64,000 nucleotides of DNA from NCBI RefSeq assembly GCF_029167645.1, contig NZ_CP119147.1, positions 2,914,001 to 2,978,000 of the forward strand, read 5' to 3'. Positions 31,909 through 43,817 of this stretch are shown piece by piece. The translations under genes were made by a program, and so were the position numbers. How positions within the stretch are numbered: the first letter of the stretch is position 1; the number at the start of each line of letters is the position of its first letter. Below the pieces are notes generated by a model, which ran no database searches, had not been told where the DNA came from, and was given only the letters and a program-made list of their open reading frames with translations. This DNA is from Streptomyces sp. AM 2-1-1. GTDB taxonomy: Bacteria; Actinomycetota; Actinomycetes; Streptomycetales; Streptomycetaceae.

Positions 31909-32691
31909 TCAGCCGAACTGGACGGAGCGCTTCGCCATCCCCAGCCAGAAGCCGTCGATCACGCTGCGGCCCCGGTCGAGCTCGGACTCCGCGGCGCCCA
32001 GCGTCACGAAGAGCGGCGCGAAGTGCTCGGTACGGGGGTGGGCGAGGCGGCCGGCCGGGGACGCGTGCTCGAAGTCGAGCAGGGAGTCGATGTCCTGGGC
32101 CTCCAGGGCCCGCTTCCCCCAGTCGTCGAACTCCGCGGACCAGGCGGGGACACCGGGGCCGGTGTGGCGCAGGGCCGCGAGGTTGTGGGTGAAGAAGCCG
32201 CTGCCGACGATCAGTACGCCCTCGTCGCGCAGCGGGGCGAGCTTGCGCCCGATCGCCATCAGCTTGCGCGGGTCGAGGGTGGGCAGCGAGATCTGGAGGA
32301 CCGGGACGTCGGCCTCCGGGAACATCTCCACCAGCGGGACGTACGCGCCGTGGTCGAGGCCGCGGTCCGGGACGTCCATGACCGGGGTCCCGGCGGCGCG
32401 GAGCAGCTTGCGGACGTCCTCGGCGAGTTCCGGGGCGCCCGGGGCGGCGTACCGCACCTGGTAGTAGTGCTCGGGGAAGCCCCAGAAGTCGTGGACCAGC
32501 GGCACGGTCGCGGTGGCGCCGAGGGCGAGGGGCGCCTCCTCCCAGTGCGCGGAGACGACCAGGATGGCGCGGGGCCGGGGCAGATCGGCGGACCAGGCGG
32601 CCAGCTCTCCGGTCCAGACCGGGTCGTCGGCGAGCGGCGGGGCGCCGTGGGAGAGGTAGAGGGCGGGCATGCGCCCGGCGGTGACGGTCAT
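31909..32691 (-). CDS. LigB-fold extradiol dioxygenase (YgiD/DODA type)
   Basis: 260-residue class III ring-cleavage dioxygenase. Metal-ligand histidines fall in LYLSHGAPPL and LVVSAHWEEAP; catalytic region GLDHGAYVPLVEMFPEADVPV and FTHNLAALRH are also conserved. Bacterial members cleave catecholic substrates such as L-DOPA in vitro; physiological substrates are mostly unknown. Divergent from a MarR gene with matching inverted repeats in between, so derepression by a phenolic compound is plausible. Confidence 0.9.
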   Translation of the reverse strand: MTVTAGRMPALYLSHGAPPLADDPVWTGELAAWSADLPRPRAILVVSAHWEEAPLALGATATVPLVHDFWGFPEHYYQVRYAAPGAPELAEDVRKLLRAAGTPVMDVPDRGLDHGAYVPLVEMFPEADVPVLQISLPTLDPRKLMAIGRKLAPLRDEGVLIVGSGFFTHNLAALRHTGPGVPAWSAEFDDWGKRALEAQDIDSLLDFEHASPAGRLAHPRTEHFAPLFVTLGAAESELDRGRSVIDGFWLGMAKRSVQFG

Positions 32692-37773: not shown

Positions 37774-39105
37774 TCAGCCCGTCGCGGAGAGCGGCTGGGC
37801 GGGGCCGGCGCCGCCGGTCTCCTTCGTGGGGCGCAGGCCGGTCAGGCAGAGCATCACCGTGGCGAACACGGCGGTGACGGCGAAGGCGGTGAAACCCCAG
37901 TCCTCGTGGCCGTTCGCGACCAGCTGTCCGCCGAGCCAGGGGCCGAAGACGGCGCCGAAGCGGCCCATGCCGCTGGTCCAGCCGACGGCGGTGGCGCGGT
38001 TGTCGTCGGTCGAGTCGCCGGCGACGGCCGCATAGACCATGGCCTGGGCGCTGAAGAGGAAGAGGCCGGTCAGGAAGACCACCGCGCAGGTGAGCGGCAG
38101 CGCCATGTGGACGCCGAGGAGGTAGACGCCGACGGCGGTGAGCGCGAACCAGAGGGCGGCGACGCGGAGTGCGCCGAAGCGGTCGGAGAAGCGGCCCGCG
38201 ACCAGCATGCCGACGATGCCACCGGCGTTGATGATCACCACGAAGGAGAGCGAGGAGCCGAGTTCGTACCCGGCGCCGCGCATCATCGTGGGCAGCCAGT
38301 TGCTGACGCCGTACACGAGGAGCAGACCGCCGAAGGAGGTCAGCCAGTAGAGCAGGGTGCGGCGCCACAGGTTGCCGCGGAAGAGGGCGGCCAGCGCGTC
38401 CCAGCGCTCTCCGGCGGCGGGACGGGCGGCCTTGGCGGCGGGCACGTCGACGTCGAAGCGGCGGGCGAGGTCGGCGGCCTCCTCGTCACGGCCCTTCGCC
38501 ACCAGGAAGCTCATCGACTCGGGCAGGAACTTCCACACCAGCGGGACACCGATGAAGAGCGGGACCACGCAGATCCAGTACGCGACGCGCCAGCCGTTCT
38601 CGCCGCCGGTCCACAGGCCGATGAAGCCCGAGACGATGCCGCCGGCCTGGTGGGCGGTCATCAGGGTGCCGACGATGATCGCTCCCCGGCCGCGCGGGGC
38701 GTACTCGGAGACCAGGGTGATGGTGACCGGCAGCAGCCCGCCGAGGCCCACCCCGGCGATGAAGCGCCCGAGGCCGAAGACCCCGACGGAGCCGGCCACC
38801 GCGCAGAGGGCGGAGGCGAGCGAGAACACCGCCGTGCAGACGATGATCAGCTTCTTGCGGCCGACCCAGTCGGTGATCGTGCCGGCCGAGAGGGCGCCGA
38901 TCAGCATGCCGAAGGTGGCGTAACTGCCGAGGTCGCCCGCCATGGAGGGCTTCAGGCCGAGCGCGTGGTGCTCCAGCATGTGCGGCAGCACGGCGCCGTA
39001 GACGAACATGTCGAGGCCGTCGAAGAGCACGACCAGCCAGCAGAGGCCGACGACCAGCAACGCGAGCTTTCTGCCCCGTGGCGACAGGGTGGTGGAGGAG
39101 GACAT
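37774..39105 (-). CDS. Aromatic acid:H+ symporter (AAHS-type MFS)
   Basis: 443-residue permease with 12 helices. AAHS features include the charged helix-1 motif LFDGLDMFVYGAVLPHM and the loop-2/3 motif GTITDWVGRKKLI, as in PcaK and GalT. The aspartate in helix 1 is required for uptake in PcaK. It faces the catabolic operon 39.5-43.8 kb, separated by 401 bp (39106-39506) that contains a GntR-type site. Expected cargo: gallate, protocatechuate or another hydroxybenzoate. Confidence 0.9.
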   Translation of the reverse strand: MSSSTTLSPRGRKLALLVVGLCWLVVLFDGLDMFVYGAVLPHMLEHHALGLKPSMAGDLGSYATFGMLIGALSAGTITDWVGRKKLIIVCTAVFSLASALCAVAGSVGVFGLGRFIAGVGLGGLLPVTITLVSEYAPRGRGAIIVGTLMTAHQAGGIVSGFIGLWTGGENGWRVAYWICVVPLFIGVPLVWKFLPESMSFLVAKGRDEEAADLARRFDVDVPAAKAARPAAGERWDALAALFRGNLWRRTLLYWLTSFGGLLLVYGVSNWLPTMMRGAGYELGSSLSFVVIINAGGIVGMLVAGRFSDRFGALRVAALWFALTAVGVYLLGVHMALPLTCAVVFLTGLFLFSAQAMVYAAVAGDSTDDNRATAVGWTSGMGRFGAVFGPWLGGQLVANGHEDWGFTAFAVTAVFATVMLCLTGLRPTKETGGAGPAQPLSATG

Positions 39106-39506: not shown

Positions 39507-40457
39507 TCAGGCGACGGGCGGGGTGCCGTGCGTGTGGAAGGACTCGATCGTCTTGAGACCCCACGCCTGGCCCTTGGCGCGTTCGGCCTCGGTCCAGGTG
39601 ATCAGCGGCCAGTCGGGGGCCAGCACGAGCCGGGTGAGCGGGTTGCAGAGTTCGACCCGGTTGCCGCCGGGCTCGTATACGTAGAGGAAGAACGTCTGCT
39701 GGATGGCGTGCTTGTGCGGGCCGGTCTCGATGAACACGTCGTTGTCGAGGCAGATGTCGGCCGCCCGCAGGATGTCCTCGCGGGTGTCGGTGGCGAAGGC
39801 GATGTGGTGCAGCCGGCCGCTGGAGCCCGTCCAGTCGGAGGTGTAGACGACGTCGTACGACTTGTTGGTGAACGTCAGCCACTGGGCGGCGAGCGTGCCG
39901 CTGTCGAGGACGATCTGCTCGGTGGGGCGGGCGCCGAGGACGTCGCGGGTGAAGGCGGCGTTGGCGGCCACGTCGGAGCCGAGGAAGTTGACGTGGTCCA
40001 GCCGCCGGACGCCGACCCCGTGGGACGGCTTGGCCTGCGGCTGGTTCTTCAGCCCCGGCTTCAGTGCGGGGGGAGCGACGTAGTGCTCGCTCTCCCAGTA
40101 CAGGGCGAGTTGATGGCCGTCCGGGTCGCTGGTCAGGTACAGCGGGCCGATGCCGGGCTCGTCCTCGGCCCAGCGGCCCGGCCGTCCGGCGGCTTCCAGC
40201 TCCTTGATCCTGCGGTGCAGCGCCTCCCCGCTGGAGGTGCGCAGTGCGGTGCGGCGCACGCCCGGCGTCCCGTGCGCGGTGAGGACGAGGCTGTGGTGCT
40301 CGTAGTCGTCGAAGGTCCGCAGGTAGACGGAGTTCCCGTCGCGGCCGTTCTCGGTCAGACCGAGTATCCGGGTGAAGAAGTCGACGCTGGCGTCGAGGTC
40401 CGGGGTGAGGAGTTCGACGTGTCCGAGGTGGGCGATGTCACCGAGAGGCGGAGTCAT
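39507..40457 (-). CDS. Type I (VOC) extradiol ring-cleavage dioxygenase, own start inside the fused frame
   Basis: 316-residue two-domain enzyme of the catechol 2,3-dioxygenase superfamily. The three Fe ligands fit the classical positions: His155 (RRLDHVNFLG), His217/218 (GRLHHIAFATD) and Glu269 (GGNRVELCNP). The own ATG has a perfect AAGGAGG seven bases upstream, so it can be translated separately. Within the operon it is the only ring-cleaving enzyme. With GalB-, GalC- and GalD-like neighbours the expected substrate is gallate or a related trihydroxybenzoate, though known gallate dioxygenases are LigB-fold. Confidence 0.85.
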   Translation of the reverse strand: MTPPLGDIAHLGHVELLTPDLDASVDFFTRILGLTENGRDGNSVYLRTFDDYEHHSLVLTAHGTPGVRRTALRTSSGEALHRRIKELEAAGRPGRWAEDEPGIGPLYLTSDPDGHQLALYWESEHYVAPPALKPGLKNQPQAKPSHGVGVRRLDHVNFLGSDVAANAAFTRDVLGARPTEQIVLDSGTLAAQWLTFTNKSYDVVYTSDWTGSSGRLHHIAFATDTREDILRAADICLDNDVFIETGPHKHAIQQTFFLYVYEPGGNRVELCNPLTRLVLAPDWPLITWTEAERAKGQAWGLKTIESFHTHGTPPVA

Positions 40458-41594
40458 CCGTGCCTCCTTCGAGGGGTGCGGGTGCGGGTGCGGAGGTGCG
40501 GAGGTGCGGTACGGGGCGGCGGGCCGCGCGAAGACGGTCCCGTCGAAGATCTTGCGGGCGGTGCGCACCACGGCGGTCCGGCCCGGCACCGGGGTGGTGC
40601 CGTCCTCGCCGACGTCGACGGCCGCCGTCACGTCCAGGTGGCCGGTGGGGTGCTCGATGCGCACCCGGCCTCCCGGCGGAGGGAGCCGGGCGATCCGCTC
40701 ACCGACGTTTCCGGGGATCAGCAGCCCGGCGGCGACGCTCGCGGCGCCCAGCACGCCGATGGAGGTGTGGCAGCGGACCGGGATGAAGGTGCGGGTGGTC
40801 ACCGCGCCGCCTTCCGCGGGCGGGGCGAGCAGACTGAGTTTGGGCACGGTGGCGGTGGAGACGTCACCGAGCCCCATGAGAGCGCCGGCCGCGAGCCGGA
40901 TCTCGCGGAGGCGGTGGGCGAGCGCGGTGTTCTCCTCCAGCTCGCCGGGGTTCTCGTAGCCGGTGATCCCGGTGTCCCGGAGATCGGCGGCGGCGATCAG
41001 GACGGTGGGCATGCCGTTGTCCACGCAGGTGACGGGGGTCCCCGCGACGGTGTCGCGGACCCGTCCGGTCGGCAGCAGCGCCCCCGAACCGGGCGGGAAG
41101 TCGACGACCACGGGAGCCGCCGTCCCCGGCACGCCGGAGAGCGCGGTGGTACCGGCGTACTCGACGCGGCCGCCCGGGGTGGGGAAGGTGGCGGCGGCGA
41201 GGTCCCCGGTGTTCATCATGCGGATGCGGACGGTGGTGCGGTCCCCGCCGGCCGGGACCAGCCCGCGTTCGACGGCGAACGGTCCGACGCCGGCCAGCAG
41301 ATTCCCGCAGTTCTGACCGTCACTCACCTCTGCTTCTTGGACGGCCACTTGGAGGAAGAGGTACTCGACGTCCGCGTCGGGGCCGTCCGAGGGCCGGACG
41401 ACGGCGACCTTGCTGGTCAGCGGGTGCGCCCCGCCGAGCCCGTCGATCTGGCGCGGGTCGGGGCTGCCCATCAGGCGGAGCAGCAGGTCGTCGCGGGCGG
41501 CGGCGTCCCCGGGGAGGTCACCGGCGAGGAAGTACGCCCCCTTGGAGGTGCCGCCCCGCATCAGCATGCACGGCACCTCCTCGGGGAGCGTCAC
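39507..41594 (-). CDS. PrpF/GalD-like tautomerase open in frame into a type I extradiol dioxygenase (695-codon fusion)
   Basis: The first 379 codons encode a PrpF-family enzyme (MLMRGGTSKGAYFLAGDLPGD, QNCGNLLAGVGPFA, GYENPGELEENTALAHRL), the family of GalD, 4-oxalomesaconate tautomerase. The frame then runs without a stop through TSAPPHPHPHPSKEAR into the dioxygenase at 40457. GTG start overlaps the aldolase stop (GTGA). A tandem repeat (40475-40509) lies at the junction; adding one octamer would put a TGA over the dioxygenase ATG, the usual two-gene layout. Whether a fused protein, two proteins or both are made is unknown. A sequencing or recent replication slip is possible. Confidence 0.75.
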   Translation of the reverse strand: MTLPEEVPCMLMRGGTSKGAYFLAGDLPGDAAARDDLLLRLMGSPDPRQIDGLGGAHPLTSKVAVVRPSDGPDADVEYLFLQVAVQEAEVSDGQNCGNLLAGVGPFAVERGLVPAGGDRTTVRIRMMNTGDLAAATFPTPGGRVEYAGTTALSGVPGTAAPVVVDFPPGSGALLPTGRVRDTVAGTPVTCVDNGMPTVLIAAADLRDTGITGYENPGELEENTALAHRLREIRLAAGALMGLGDVSTATVPKLSLLAPPAEGGAVTTRTFIPVRCHTSIGVLGAASVAAGLLIPGNVGERIARLPPPGGRVRIEHPTGHLDVTAAVDVGEDGTTPVPGRTAVVRTARKIFDGTVFARPAAPYRTSAPPHPHPHPSKEARMTPPLGDIAHLGHVELLTPDLDASVDFFTRILGLTENGRDGNSVYLRTFDDYEHHSLVLTAHGTPGVRRTALRTSSGEALHRRIKELEAAGRPGRWAEDEPGIGPLYLTSDPDGHQLALYWESEHYVAPPALKPGLKNQPQAKPSHGVGVRRLDHVNFLGSDVAANAAFTRDVLGARPTEQIVLDSGTLAAQWLTFTNKSYDVVYTSDWTGSSGRLHHIAFATDTREDILRAADICLDNDVFIETGPHKHAIQQTFFLYVYEPGGNRVELCNPLTRLVLAPDWPLITWTEAERAKGQAWGLKTIESFHTHGTPPVA
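40475..40509. repeat. GGTGCG hexamer/octamer tandem repeat at the fusion junction
   Basis: Two GGTGCG hexamers are followed by two GGTGCGGA octamers and a partial copy. It lies 18-52 bp before the dioxygenase ATG, inside the coding frame of the tautomerase. Changes of octamer number alter the frame, and both other frames stop within about 20 bp. Confidence 0.8.
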
Positions 41595-42301
41595 GGTGCC
41601 GCTCCGTCGCGCAGGTGCTCCTCGTACGAGCGGTACGTCACGCCGAGCCGTTCCAGTGTCTCCCGCAGGCCGTACCGGTCGAGGCCCAACTGCCCCCCGG
41701 CGAAGGCCGCCCGGGACGCCTCCTCCTTGGCGGTACGCGCGACGGAGGCCTCGATCGCCTCGGCGGCCCGCTCGCGCGGCACGCACATCACGCCGTCGTC
41801 GTCGGCGAGGACGATGTCGCCGGGCCGGACGATCCGCCCTTCGATCGCGACGGGGACGTTGACCGATCCGCCGGTCGCCTTCACGGTGCCCTGCGCGCTG
41901 ACGGCCTTCGACCAGACGGGGAAGTTCATCGCGCGCAGCTCCGCCGTGTCACGCACCCCGGTGGTGGTGATCAGGCCGCGTACGCCCCGGCGCTGGAGGG
42001 CGGTGGCGAAGAGCTCACCGAACAGGCCGTCCGTACAGGGGGAGGTGGTGGTGACGACGAGGATGTCCCCCTCGCCGCACTGCTCCACCGCCGCGTGGAT
42101 CATGAGGTTGTCGCCGGGCCAGCAGAGGGCCGTGACGGCGGTGCCGGCGATCCGTACGCCCTGCTGGACCGGGCGGAGCGCGGGGCCGAGGCTGCCGGTG
42201 CGGCCGAGGGCCTCGTGCACCGTGGCCACACCGTGGCCGGCCAGGGCGTCGGCCTGGGCCAGGGACGCCTTCGGGGGGTTGGTGACGATCACGCCGCTCA
42301 T
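41591..42301 (-). CDS. RraA/HMG-type aldolase (4-carboxy-4-hydroxy-2-oxoadipate aldolase, GalC-like)
   Basis: 236-residue class II aldolase of the HMG/CHA family, which splits 4-carboxy-4-hydroxy-2-oxoadipate to pyruvate and oxaloacetate. The family core GLITTTGVRDTAELRAMNFPVWSK holds the substrate Arg, and DIVLADDDGVMCVPRE the metal Asp. Helix GHGVATVHEALGRTGSL is typical. ATG overlaps the PIG-L stop (ATGA). It feeds central metabolism at the end of gallate or protocatechuate 4,5-cleavage. Confidence 0.88.
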   Translation of the reverse strand: MSGVIVTNPPKASLAQADALAGHGVATVHEALGRTGSLGPALRPVQQGVRIAGTAVTALCWPGDNLMIHAAVEQCGEGDILVVTTTSPCTDGLFGELFATALQRRGVRGLITTTGVRDTAELRAMNFPVWSKAVSAQGTVKATGGSVNVPVAIEGRIVRPGDIVLADDDGVMCVPRERAAEAIEASVARTAKEEASRAAFAGGQLGLDRYGLRETLERLGVTYRSYEEHLRDGAAP

Positions 42302-43047
42302 GCCAGGACCCCCGTGACCTGCGGGTACGGGCGCATGTACGCCTCGCCGTAGGTGGTCGACGCCAGGCCCAGGTTGGGTCCCGCGTTTCGCTTGAGCTGC
42401 ACTCCGCGCCGCTTGCCGAGGTCGGTGTAGTACTCCCACAGGTGCGCCTGCGCGGAGAGGCACTCCATCGCCTCGCGCTTGGTGTCGAAGACCTCGGTGA
42501 TGTCGAGGAGCACCTCGGGGGTGAAGCCGCACATCTCCGGCTGGTGGGGCTCGAAGAAGAAGACCGGCGGGGCACCCAGGACCTCGCCGGGGGCCGGGTA
42601 GCCGATGGCCCCGGCCAGCACCCGGGCGTCCAGCGCCATCCGGGCGGCGGCCGGGTGGTCGCCGTTGTACGGGTCCTCCAGCGGGTGCGTGAGCACCACG
42701 TCGGGCTGGGTCTCGCGGTAGATCGCGACCAGCCGGTCGGTCAGCTCCGGGGTGACCAACAGGGGGTAGTCACCGGCGTCCAGGAAGCGCACCTCTGCCC
42801 CGAGGACGGCGGCGGCCCGTTCCGCCTCGTCCCGGCGCATCGCCTTGATCTCCTCCAGCGCCTTGCCCTCGCGCCAGGCCCGCGCCGACTCACCGCGCTC
42901 GCCGTAGGTCAGACAGGCGATGGTCACTCTCTCGCCGCGCGAGGCGGCGAGGGCGACGGCGCCCCCGGCCCGCCACACGAAGTCTCCGGCGTGCGCGGTG
43001 ACGACGAGCGTCGACCGTGCGGGGGCGGGCGCGTTGGCTTGGGTCAT
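42298..43047 (-). CDS. PIG-L-fold hydrolase, 4-oxalomesaconate hydratase (GalB-like)
   Basis: 249-residue zinc enzyme of the PIG-L/LmbE family. The usual AHPDDE is replaced by AHAGDFVWRAGG, the form I associate with GalB-type 4-oxalomesaconate hydratases rather than deacetylases. The metal-binding LTHPLEDPYNGDHPAAARMAL follows. ATG with AAGGAGACG upstream. Lies 57 bp after gntR and overlaps the aldolase. It hydrates 4-oxalomesaconate to carboxy-hydroxy-oxoadipate, by analogy with Pseudomonas putida GalB. Confidence 0.82.
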   Translation of the reverse strand: MTQANAPAPARSTLVVTAHAGDFVWRAGGAVALAASRGERVTIACLTYGERGESARAWREGKALEEIKAMRRDEAERAAAVLGAEVRFLDAGDYPLLVTPELTDRLVAIYRETQPDVVLTHPLEDPYNGDHPAAARMALDARVLAGAIGYPAPGEVLGAPPVFFFEPHQPEMCGFTPEVLLDITEVFDTKREAMECLSAQAHLWEYYTDLGKRRGVQLKRNAGPNLGLASTTYGEAYMRPYPQVTGVLA

Positions 43048-43104
43048 GCTTGCGTCTCCTTGGCTGCGGGTGCGCTCCCGCCCCACCGGAAACCCCCTGG
43101 CGGG

Positions 43105-43755
43105 TCAGGCGCGCAACACGTCGATCACACTGCTGAGATGAGCGCGGACGGCCTGCTCGGCCGCCTGCGGTTCCCCGGCCACGATCGCTTCGATCATGGC
43201 GAGGTGTTCGCTCAGGGACTGCTGGGGACGACCGGGCCTCAGGGCCAACTGGAACTGGTGGCGCACCAGTTGCCCGTTGAGTCGCTCCAGGAGTTCCACG
43301 GCGGTCCGCTGCCCGGAGAACTCCCTGACGCAGGTGTGCAGTTGGTGGTTGAGCTCGGAGTAGGTGAGGGGATCGCCCTCTGCCACCGCCTTGGCCATGA
43401 GTGCGCCCAGACCGGTCAGCTCCTCGCGCTGCGCCTCGGTGGCCAGGACCGCCGCCTTGGCGGCACACAGCCCTTCGAGCGCCATGCGGCACTCGGTGAT
43501 GGCTACCGCCTCCTCCACGGTCACCACGCGCACCCGGGACCCGCGGTTACGGATCCGCTCCACCAGCCCCTGCGCGGCAAGATCGATCAGCGCCGCACGG
43601 ATGCTGGCCCGTGTCACACCGAACCGCTCGGCGAGTTCGTTCTCCACCAGCCGTTGGGCCGGCGCCATCTCGCCCCGCAGAATCGCCTGCCGGAGCTGGG
43701 ACAACGCCAGTTGCTTGGCCTGCTCCCCGCTGCCCGGACTGGCTTCCTTCGGCAT
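43105..43755 (-). CDS. GntR-family regulator, FCD type
   Basis: 216-residue regulator. N-terminal winged helix: QLRQAILRGEMAPAQRLVENELAERFGVTRASIRAALIDLAAQGLVER. The C-terminal FCD domain has its metal-binding residues spread over TYSELNHQLHTCV and SLSEHLAMIEAIVAGEP. ATG with GGGAGG upstream. First gene of the operon galB-C-D-dioxygenase. TTGTCAACAA sites lie in front of this gene and of the transporter, implying repression relieved by an aromatic acid or ring-cleavage intermediate. Confidence 0.92.
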   Translation of the reverse strand: MPKEASPGSGEQAKQLALSQLRQAILRGEMAPAQRLVENELAERFGVTRASIRAALIDLAAQGLVERIRNRGSRVRVVTVEEAVAITECRMALEGLCAAKAAVLATEAQREELTGLGALMAKAVAEGDPLTYSELNHQLHTCVREFSGQRTAVELLERLNGQLVRHQFQLALRPGRPQQSLSEHLAMIEAIVAGEPQAAEQAVRAHLSSVIDVLRA

Positions 43756-43807: not shown

Positions 43808-43817
43808 TTGTCAACAA
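43808..43817. promoter_or_regulatory. FCD-GntR-type operator TTGTCAACAA upstream of gntR
   Basis: The same 10-bp TTGT-N2-ACAA palindrome as at 39235, here 53 bp upstream of the gntR start within AT-rich DNA (GATTGTCAACAATTTTG). The shared word at two promoters of one pathway supports a common regulator. Confidence 0.7.

Follow-up and report, generated by a model that had tools for sequence, protein, structure and literature searches.

The stretch of DNA analysed here (the window) spans 64,000 nucleotides of the Streptomyces sp. AM 2-1-1 genome (7.2 Mb in two contigs; window at positions 2,914,001 to 2,978,000 of contig NZ_CP119147.1), and its genes are cited by window coordinates. On the minus strand it carries five contiguous genes encoding a GntR-FCD regulator, a PIG-L protein, an RraA/LigK-type aldolase, a PrpF-type tautomerase, and a VOC dioxygenase, followed by a gene for an AAHS-like transporter of the MFS type (Table 1). 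The initial annotation had described this arrangement and the motif AHAGDFVW in the PIG-L protein; the motif is present, and the contiguity is borne out by open reading frame (ORF) positions and family matches. The interval it gave, 39507..43755, runs exactly from the VOC stop codon to the GntR start codon. It had further proposed that the VOC enzyme opens gallate or a close analogue straight to 4-oxalomesaconate (OMA), as a non-orthologous replacement of the LigB-fold dioxygenase GalA. The sequence tests described below (on LigI, LigC, GalA-like LigB proteins, and a tannase in the inferred regulon) mostly favour this proposal, and we give a probability of roughly 0.86 to the reading that the operon belongs to a tannin/gallate regulon in which a type I (VOC-fold) dioxygenase opens the ring in place of GalA.

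Table 1. Features of the gallate-type operon and its surroundings (window coordinates).
Feature	Position	Strand	Basis or remark
Putative operator TTGTTGACAA, 10 bp	43808..43817	minus	62 nt upstream of GntR ATG; overlaps a TTGACA -35-like box (by eye)
GntR-FCD regulator, first operon gene	43105..43755 (ATG 43755)	minus	PF07729 87 bits, PF00392 60 bits; start and stop checked
PIG-L-fold OMA hydratase, GalB-like, AHAGDFVW motif	42298..43047	minus	PF02585 88 bits
4-Carboxy-4-hydroxy-2-oxoadipate (CHA) aldolase, LigK/GalC-like, RraA fold	41591..42301	minus	NF006731 322.8 bits, cut-off 179
OMA tautomerase, GalD/LigU-like, PrpF fold	40458..41594 (GTG start 41594)	minus	NF033377 476.3 bits, cut-off 440
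Proposed gallate dioxygenase, 316 aa, a type I (VOC) ring-cleaving enzyme	39507..40457	minus	TIGR03211, 9wgj; own ATG behind GAAGGAGG
His155 codon, Fe ligand (HPCD His155)	39993..39995	minus	alignment to homoprotocatechuate 2,3-dioxygenase (HPCD)
Tyr201 codon, position of catalytic His200 in HPCD	39855..39857	minus	alignment to HPCD
His218 codon, Fe ligand (HPCD His214)	39804..39806	minus	alignment to HPCD
Glu269 codon, Fe ligand (HPCD Glu267)	39651..39653	minus	alignment to HPCD
Second putative operator copy TTGTTGACAA	39235..39244	minus	exact copy, 139 nt upstream of transporter ATG
AAHS-like aromatic acid/H+ symporter, GalT-like role	37774..39105	minus	TIGR00895
YgiD/4,5-DOPA dioxygenase-like LigB-fold protein, outside operon	31909-32691	minus	sole PF02900 match in genome

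The partner genes encode OMA-pathway enzymes, so a catechol meta-pathway is not what the operon encodes. The top PDB match of the PIG-L protein is 5cgz, named '4-oxalmesaconate hydratase' (263.9 bits, query residues 11-248), and that of the tautomerase is 6p3j, a (4E)-oxalomesaconate isomerase (392 bits). The aldolase also scores 290 bits against TIGR02798, under its cut-off of 304.5, and for the transporter TIGR00895 is the best of 42 families at 274 bits, under its cut-off of 418.55. In Pseudomonas putida KT2440, the gallate pathway comprises GalT, GalA, GalB, GalC, and GalD. The two systems share the reactions after ring opening, with a PIG-L hydratase, a PrpF-fold tautomerase, and an RraA-fold aldolase, and the AAHS-like transporter here may take the part of GalT; they differ in the ring opener, which is VOC-fold here and LigB-fold there, and in the regulator, GntR-FCD here and GalR there (excerpt of PMC9649394).

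The structure of OMA points to the substrate. Carbon bookkeeping on the known structures starts from the three carboxyls and the single keto group of OMA and leads back to a ring with three neighbouring hydroxyls and a carboxyl para to the central one. That ring is gallate, the only trihydroxybenzoate that a single C-C cleavage turns into OMA. Protocatechuate requires an additional dehydrogenase and lactonase to get there: its 4,5-cleavage pathway (LigAB/PcmA) uses a LigB-fold dioxygenase, LigC, and LigI, often with LigJ as the hydratase. OMA, the tautomerase (LigU), and the aldolase (LigK) are common to that pathway and the operon, whereas the LigB-fold dioxygenase, LigC, and LigI are not closely matched in this genome. 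The initial annotation had pointed out the lack of LigC and LigI; across the genome, searches likewise gave no LigI match and no close LigC. A Novosphingobium LigI query found nothing at an E value of ≤10 in a search run without a positive control, and a same-genus query that matches 29 genomes of a same-genus set of 150 (own included) found nothing here at 1e-20; the best of seven LigC matches is a Gfo/Idh protein with 26% identity across residues 36-286 of the 356-residue query. Protocatechuate has another route in this genome, since pcaH is present (350 bits, cut-off 296). No GalA-like LigB-fold protein was found in the genome either; its single PF02900 protein is YgiD/DODA-like and scores nearest 4,5-DOPA dioxygenase, under that cut-off. 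As a candidate GalA it was rejected on its family score and because it is unmatched in all 80 operon loci compared below.

The putative operator provides a line of evidence that does not depend on the enzymes. The site before the GntR gene reads TTGT-TG-ACAA, with inverted arms, and TTGTTGACAA has four exact copies in the 7.2-Mb genome; a reversed control pattern has just one, which puts the chance expectation at about one copy. The four copies lie at the operon, at the transporter gene, at a gene for a subtype-B tannase 2.06 Mb away, and in one unrelated place. The third of these stands 87 bp before the ATG that starts a 603-amino-acid protein whose N terminus looks signal-like by eye and which matches the subtype B tannase family NF041556 (368.2 bits, cut-off 300) as well as the PDB tannases 6yq4 and 4j0c. 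Tannases free gallate from gallotannins, and because this one shares the site, the sites indicate gallate as the substrate independently of the operon enzymes. Of 62 loci, 47 have the repeat TTGTNNACAA in the 160 nt preceding GntR (45 of 59 when only distinct regions are counted), versus 71 of 4,000 random pieces; among 60 distinct VOC-to-MFS spacers from relatives and from this genome itself, 52 contain it. Within the same-genus set, orthologues of the subtype-B tannase were found in 7 of the 35 genomes with a VOC orthologue at ≥79% identity (VOC+) versus 0 of the 115 others (VOC-; p 2e-5), in one genome in two pieces; TTGTNNACAA precedes the tannase gene in 6 of these 7, own included, and the seventh shows near matches only.

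The association extends to tannases of the PF07519 family. This family matches 76 of the 150 genomes, mostly weakly or partially, and our counts use the 21 genomes with near-full-length matches (E 2.7e-90 or better): 12/35 VOC+ versus 9/115 VOC- (p 3e-4). With all 76 counted, the figures are 26/35 and 50/115 (p 0.002). In three genomes such a tannase lies within 5 kb of the VOC gene, versus about 0.014 expected (assuming 13 tannase loci, a 10-kb target, and 9.5-Mb genomes), and tannases of either kind occur in 16/35 VOC+ and 9/115 VOC- genomes. Among the actinobacterial loci described next, 4 of 80 carry a tannase gene (L096, L120, L132, and L137; L numbers denote loci and G numbers genomes), and on an Agrobacterium pAt plasmid a tannase (PF07519, 438 bits) directly follows PIG-L-VOC-ligK-tautomerase. 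The genome studied here has no PF07519 tannase in one search that ran without a control match, the same family matching 76 of the 150 genomes and not this one; the gallate reading was doubted for want of such an enzyme until the site scan led to the subtype-B tannase.

The gene set is conserved. A VOC match at 1e-20 is present in 44 of the 150 genomes, 35 of them VOC+, and the OMA tautomerase (E≤1e-80) occurs in 35/35 VOC+ versus 8/115 VOC- genomes (Fisher p 8e-27; 42 of 43 over the family cut-off), showing that the set is not a chance assembly. For named genomes, we compared the best 80 of 546 related stretches, all actinobacterial by title and read up to 8 kb on each side. Partner genes were frequent there (PrpF 75, RraA 74, GntR 70, PIG-L 64, MFS 45) and Lig-type genes rare (LigI 1, in L128; LigJ 3; LigC 0; LigB-type 0). 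In four of the five loci without PrpF the VOC gene is near a contig end, and the fifth, L126, has just PIG-L and RraA. Plasmid records matching the VOC protein numbered 106, and the surroundings were examined for 20; the four enzyme genes, VOC included, are contiguous on plasmids of Agrobacterium tumefaciens, Thioclava, Roseibium, Rhizobium SL42, and A. vitis, and LigI, LigC, and LigJ queries had no match in those five regions. Pantoea piersonii, located via the aldolase, has the four enzyme genes within about 7 kb.

We take the VOC fold as settled by similarity to solved relatives, the top-scoring of which is 9wgj ('Catechol 1,2-dioxygenase', 357 bits). Aligned with HPCD (PDB 1f1x and 1q0c), the C-terminal VOC module has the 2-His-1-Glu iron triad of type I extradiol enzymes, and beyond the triad Asn157, His250, and Tyr259 agree with Asn157, His248, and Tyr257 of HPCD. 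Unlike in HPCD, the second-sphere catalytic histidine of type I dioxygenases (His200) is absent and Tyr201 stands in its place, Arg243 and Arg293 are replaced by Thr and Gly, respectively, and the downstream pathway differs. We surveyed residue 200 (HPCD numbering) in 156 distinct VOC sequences, 153 from loci and 3 from the PDB, which were chosen for their similarity to the VOC protein of the window and therefore over-represent its clade. All 116 sequences that have a PrpF tautomerase gene nearby carry tyrosine, as do 17 of the 37 that have none: 10 of the 11 with only PIG-L or RraA nearby, and 7 of the 26 with neither partner type in the sequence examined. Three of these last 7 lie near contig ends, and the remaining 19 of the 26 have His. 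Among the PDB chains, 9wgj likewise has Tyr, unlike HPCD and 3lm4 (named, as TIGR03211 is, catechol 2,3-dioxygenase), which have His; for 9wgj we found no genomic context or measured substrate. In a 49-row tree with some unresolved forks, the change to Tyr was counted once; L042, a His row, falls within the Tyr rows.

In the route that these findings suggest, the subtype-B tannase, encoded elsewhere and probably secreted, would free gallate, and the AAHS-like transporter would import it. The VOC enzyme would bind two of the three gallate hydroxyls on the iron held by His155, His218, and Glu269 and split the ring between C4 and an adjacent carbon that bears a hydroxyl, which would yield OMA directly, without LigC or LigI. 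The tautomerase, the PIG-L hydratase, and the aldolase would then convert OMA to pyruvate and oxaloacetate. GntR would repress three promoters through TTGTTGACAA until an inducer appears, probably gallate or its ring-opened product.

Several observations weigh against this reading. Characterised VOC enzymes cut 4-substituted catechols next to the substituent, which on gallate would not give OMA, so the regiochemistry would have to be unusual, and the activity proposed here is one that we infer from sequence. The protein scores 338.1 bits against the TIGR03211 'catechol 2,3-dioxygenase' equivalog, over the cut-off of 320.2 (an Agrobacterium relative, with 296.8 bits, is under it), and clusters with PIG-L, RraA, and a His-200 VOC enzyme exist (L042/L216). 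Binding of GntR to the sites is likewise a prediction, and the repeat is missing from 14 of the 59 distinct GntR upstream regions. Neither a full-length PF07519 tannase nor a subtype-B tannase is present in 19 of the 35 VOC+ genomes. Five Streptomyces loci (L067, L075, L079, L080, and L093) lack PIG-L between GntR and RraA, and a 6.8-kb contig of G014 has GntR, PrpF, VOC, and MFS and neither RraA nor PIG-L. Some relatives are misfits: the VOC genes of Pantoea At-9b and Chimaeribacter do not have these partners within 7 kb, and on Roseomonas plasmids (L056 and L065) a Tyr-type VOC gene is near LigB-type dioxygenase, LigI-like lactonase, and VanA-like oxygenase genes, so that both ring-opening superfamilies meet in one cluster. 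LigI at ≥70% identity occurs elsewhere in the genome in 12/35 VOC+ versus 13/115 VOC- genomes (p 0.003), a count that leaves out G011, G122, and G110, at 31-33% identity, and G096, whose match is a fragment of 96 residues; with all weaker rows, it is 14 versus 15 (p 0.001). Some species may thus feed the operon from 2-pyrone-4,6-dicarboxylate (PDC) via LigI. In L128, a Nocardioides metagenome-assembled (MAG) contig and one of the 75 PrpF loci, PrpF is part of a LigI/LigJ-type cluster, and PrpF, RraA, LigI-like, and LigJ-like genes adjoin a Tyr-type VOC gene; the cluster may exist here in a form for protocatechuate or PDC.

These last observations would also be explained if the VOC enzyme were a protocatechuate 4,5-dioxygenase and unlinked enzymes oxidised and hydrolysed the semialdehyde before the operon pathway, an alternative that we consider improbable. 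The LigI genes of VOC+ genomes and the one beside the VOC gene in L128 speak for it, and it would fit clusters in Thermus oshimai and two actinobacterial lineages in which VOC stands with PIG-L, RraA, DUF6282, and a DUF1932-type dehydrogenase, the tautomerase being unmatched; the Thermus VOC cluster is also near a 4-hydroxybenzoate 3-monooxygenase. This genome, however, has pcaH and no LigI match or close LigC, and the shared site precedes a tannase. Moreover, of the eight VOC- genomes with a tautomerase, five have LigI beside it, against a single one of the 80 VOC loci. Those five genomes (L202, L203, L205, L207, and L208), where LigJ is also adjacent, contain LigI-LigJ-LigK-LigU-type clusters; over the 12-17 kb read, no ring-cleaving enzyme of the LigAB or VOC kind was matched, and these genomes perhaps use PDC made by others. 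Two of the remaining three resemble operon remnants without VOC (L204: PrpF 75%, RraA 69%, and a GntR piece 55%; L206: PrpF 73% and GntR in two pieces, 73 and 79%), and the last has a lone 38% PrpF.

Alternatively, the physiological substrate could be a gallate analogue, such as 3-O-methylgallate or a galloyl ester, with gallate secondary, which seems to us slightly less probable still. LigB-type GalA acts on 3-O-methylgallate too (excerpt of PMC12481942), and the Roseomonas VOC genes are near a VanA-like oxygenase, but if the product were a methyl ester, an esterase would be required, or methanol loss to PDC followed by LigI, which was not found here, and the tannase would release free gallate. 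As a further substrate beside gallate, 3-O-methylgallate is possible. Least likely of all is that another enzyme, the YgiD-like LigB protein or PcaGH, opens gallate and that VOC is an ordinary catechol dioxygenase: the TIGR03211 score, the LigB-fold gene in the same window, and the PDC that PcaHG of other bacteria makes from gallate (excerpt of PMC12481942) would allow it, but the YgiD-like gene is unmatched in the 80 related loci, read up to 8 kb on each side, and scores nearest a different enzyme, the tautomerase-linked VOC sequences all carry Tyr at 200, and the operon genes are those of the OMA pathway.

If the VOC enzyme does open gallate to OMA, the His-to-Tyr swap may bear on how. A paper of 2003 (listed among the references of PMC13383722) reportedly turned HPCD, according to its title, into an intradiol enzyme, by a change said to be at His200. 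Because gallate is symmetric, intradiol (C3-C4) and distal extradiol (C4-C5) cleavage give one product. According to calculations on HPCD, Tyr257, His200, and His248 favour proximal extradiol over intradiol cleavage (excerpt of PMC6308299). PcaHG, an intradiol enzyme, converts some gallate to PDC, which illustrates that intradiol cleavage of gallate yields the same skeleton (excerpt of PMC12481942). It is conceivable, if on balance doubtful, that the swap of this acid-base His for Tyr shifts the break to between two hydroxyl-bearing carbons, possibly in an intradiol-type reaction at an Fe(II) VOC site, and that this single swap made a new family of gallate dioxygenases from catechol enzymes.

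AromaDeg classes gallate dioxygenases under the LigB superfamily; the portion of its VOC passage that was consulted names no gallate enzyme (PMC4250580). No report of a VOC-fold gallate dioxygenase was among the top matches in the open-access literature, a weak negative given that most subscription papers are outside that scope. The pathway itself is known; the well-supported reading is of a variant of it, in which a non-orthologous VOC-fold gallate dioxygenase with Tyr at the catalytic position belongs to a tannin regulon. Gallate ring opening, a step of tannin breakdown, may thus have evolved twice, and, if the reading is correct, it arose independently in two protein superfamilies. A widespread group found in Streptomyces, other actinobacteria, rhizobia, Agrobacterium, Thioclava, and Pantoea, which at present mostly goes by 'catechol 2,3-dioxygenase' or 'VOC family protein', would then be reassigned to tannin breakdown, and enzymologists would have a natural Tyr-for-His variant at the HPCD residue that calculations name as steering cleavage. 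The inferred regulon is also a candidate gallate-responsive GntR switch.

Public names of the VOC relatives include catechol 2,3-dioxygenase, catechol 1,2-dioxygenase, and VOC family protein, probably a systematic misnaming. The fourth copy of TTGTTGACAA (G000 C1:4973562-4973571; L221 and L224) lies between ORFs that resemble, by eye, a glycyl-tRNA synthetase and a metal-binding lipoprotein, and it was set aside as a regulon member for want of any link. In the three clusters with DUF6282 (L058, L215, and L216), that protein may be a PDC lactonase or an enzyme acting on OMA that has gone unrecognised. Two Kutzneria loci (L141 and L143) have a LigJ-like hydratase, 62-63% identical to Novosphingobium LigJ, near a PIG-L-less operon. 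Finally, the tautomerase and VOC frames run together without a stop in this genome alone (695 codons, 39507-41594, minus strand; 1 of 32 loci). A conserved bifunctional PrpF-VOC fusion was therefore rejected, the VOC start also keeping its own ribosome-binding site; in this genome, a fusion protein is possible alongside VOC made from its own start.

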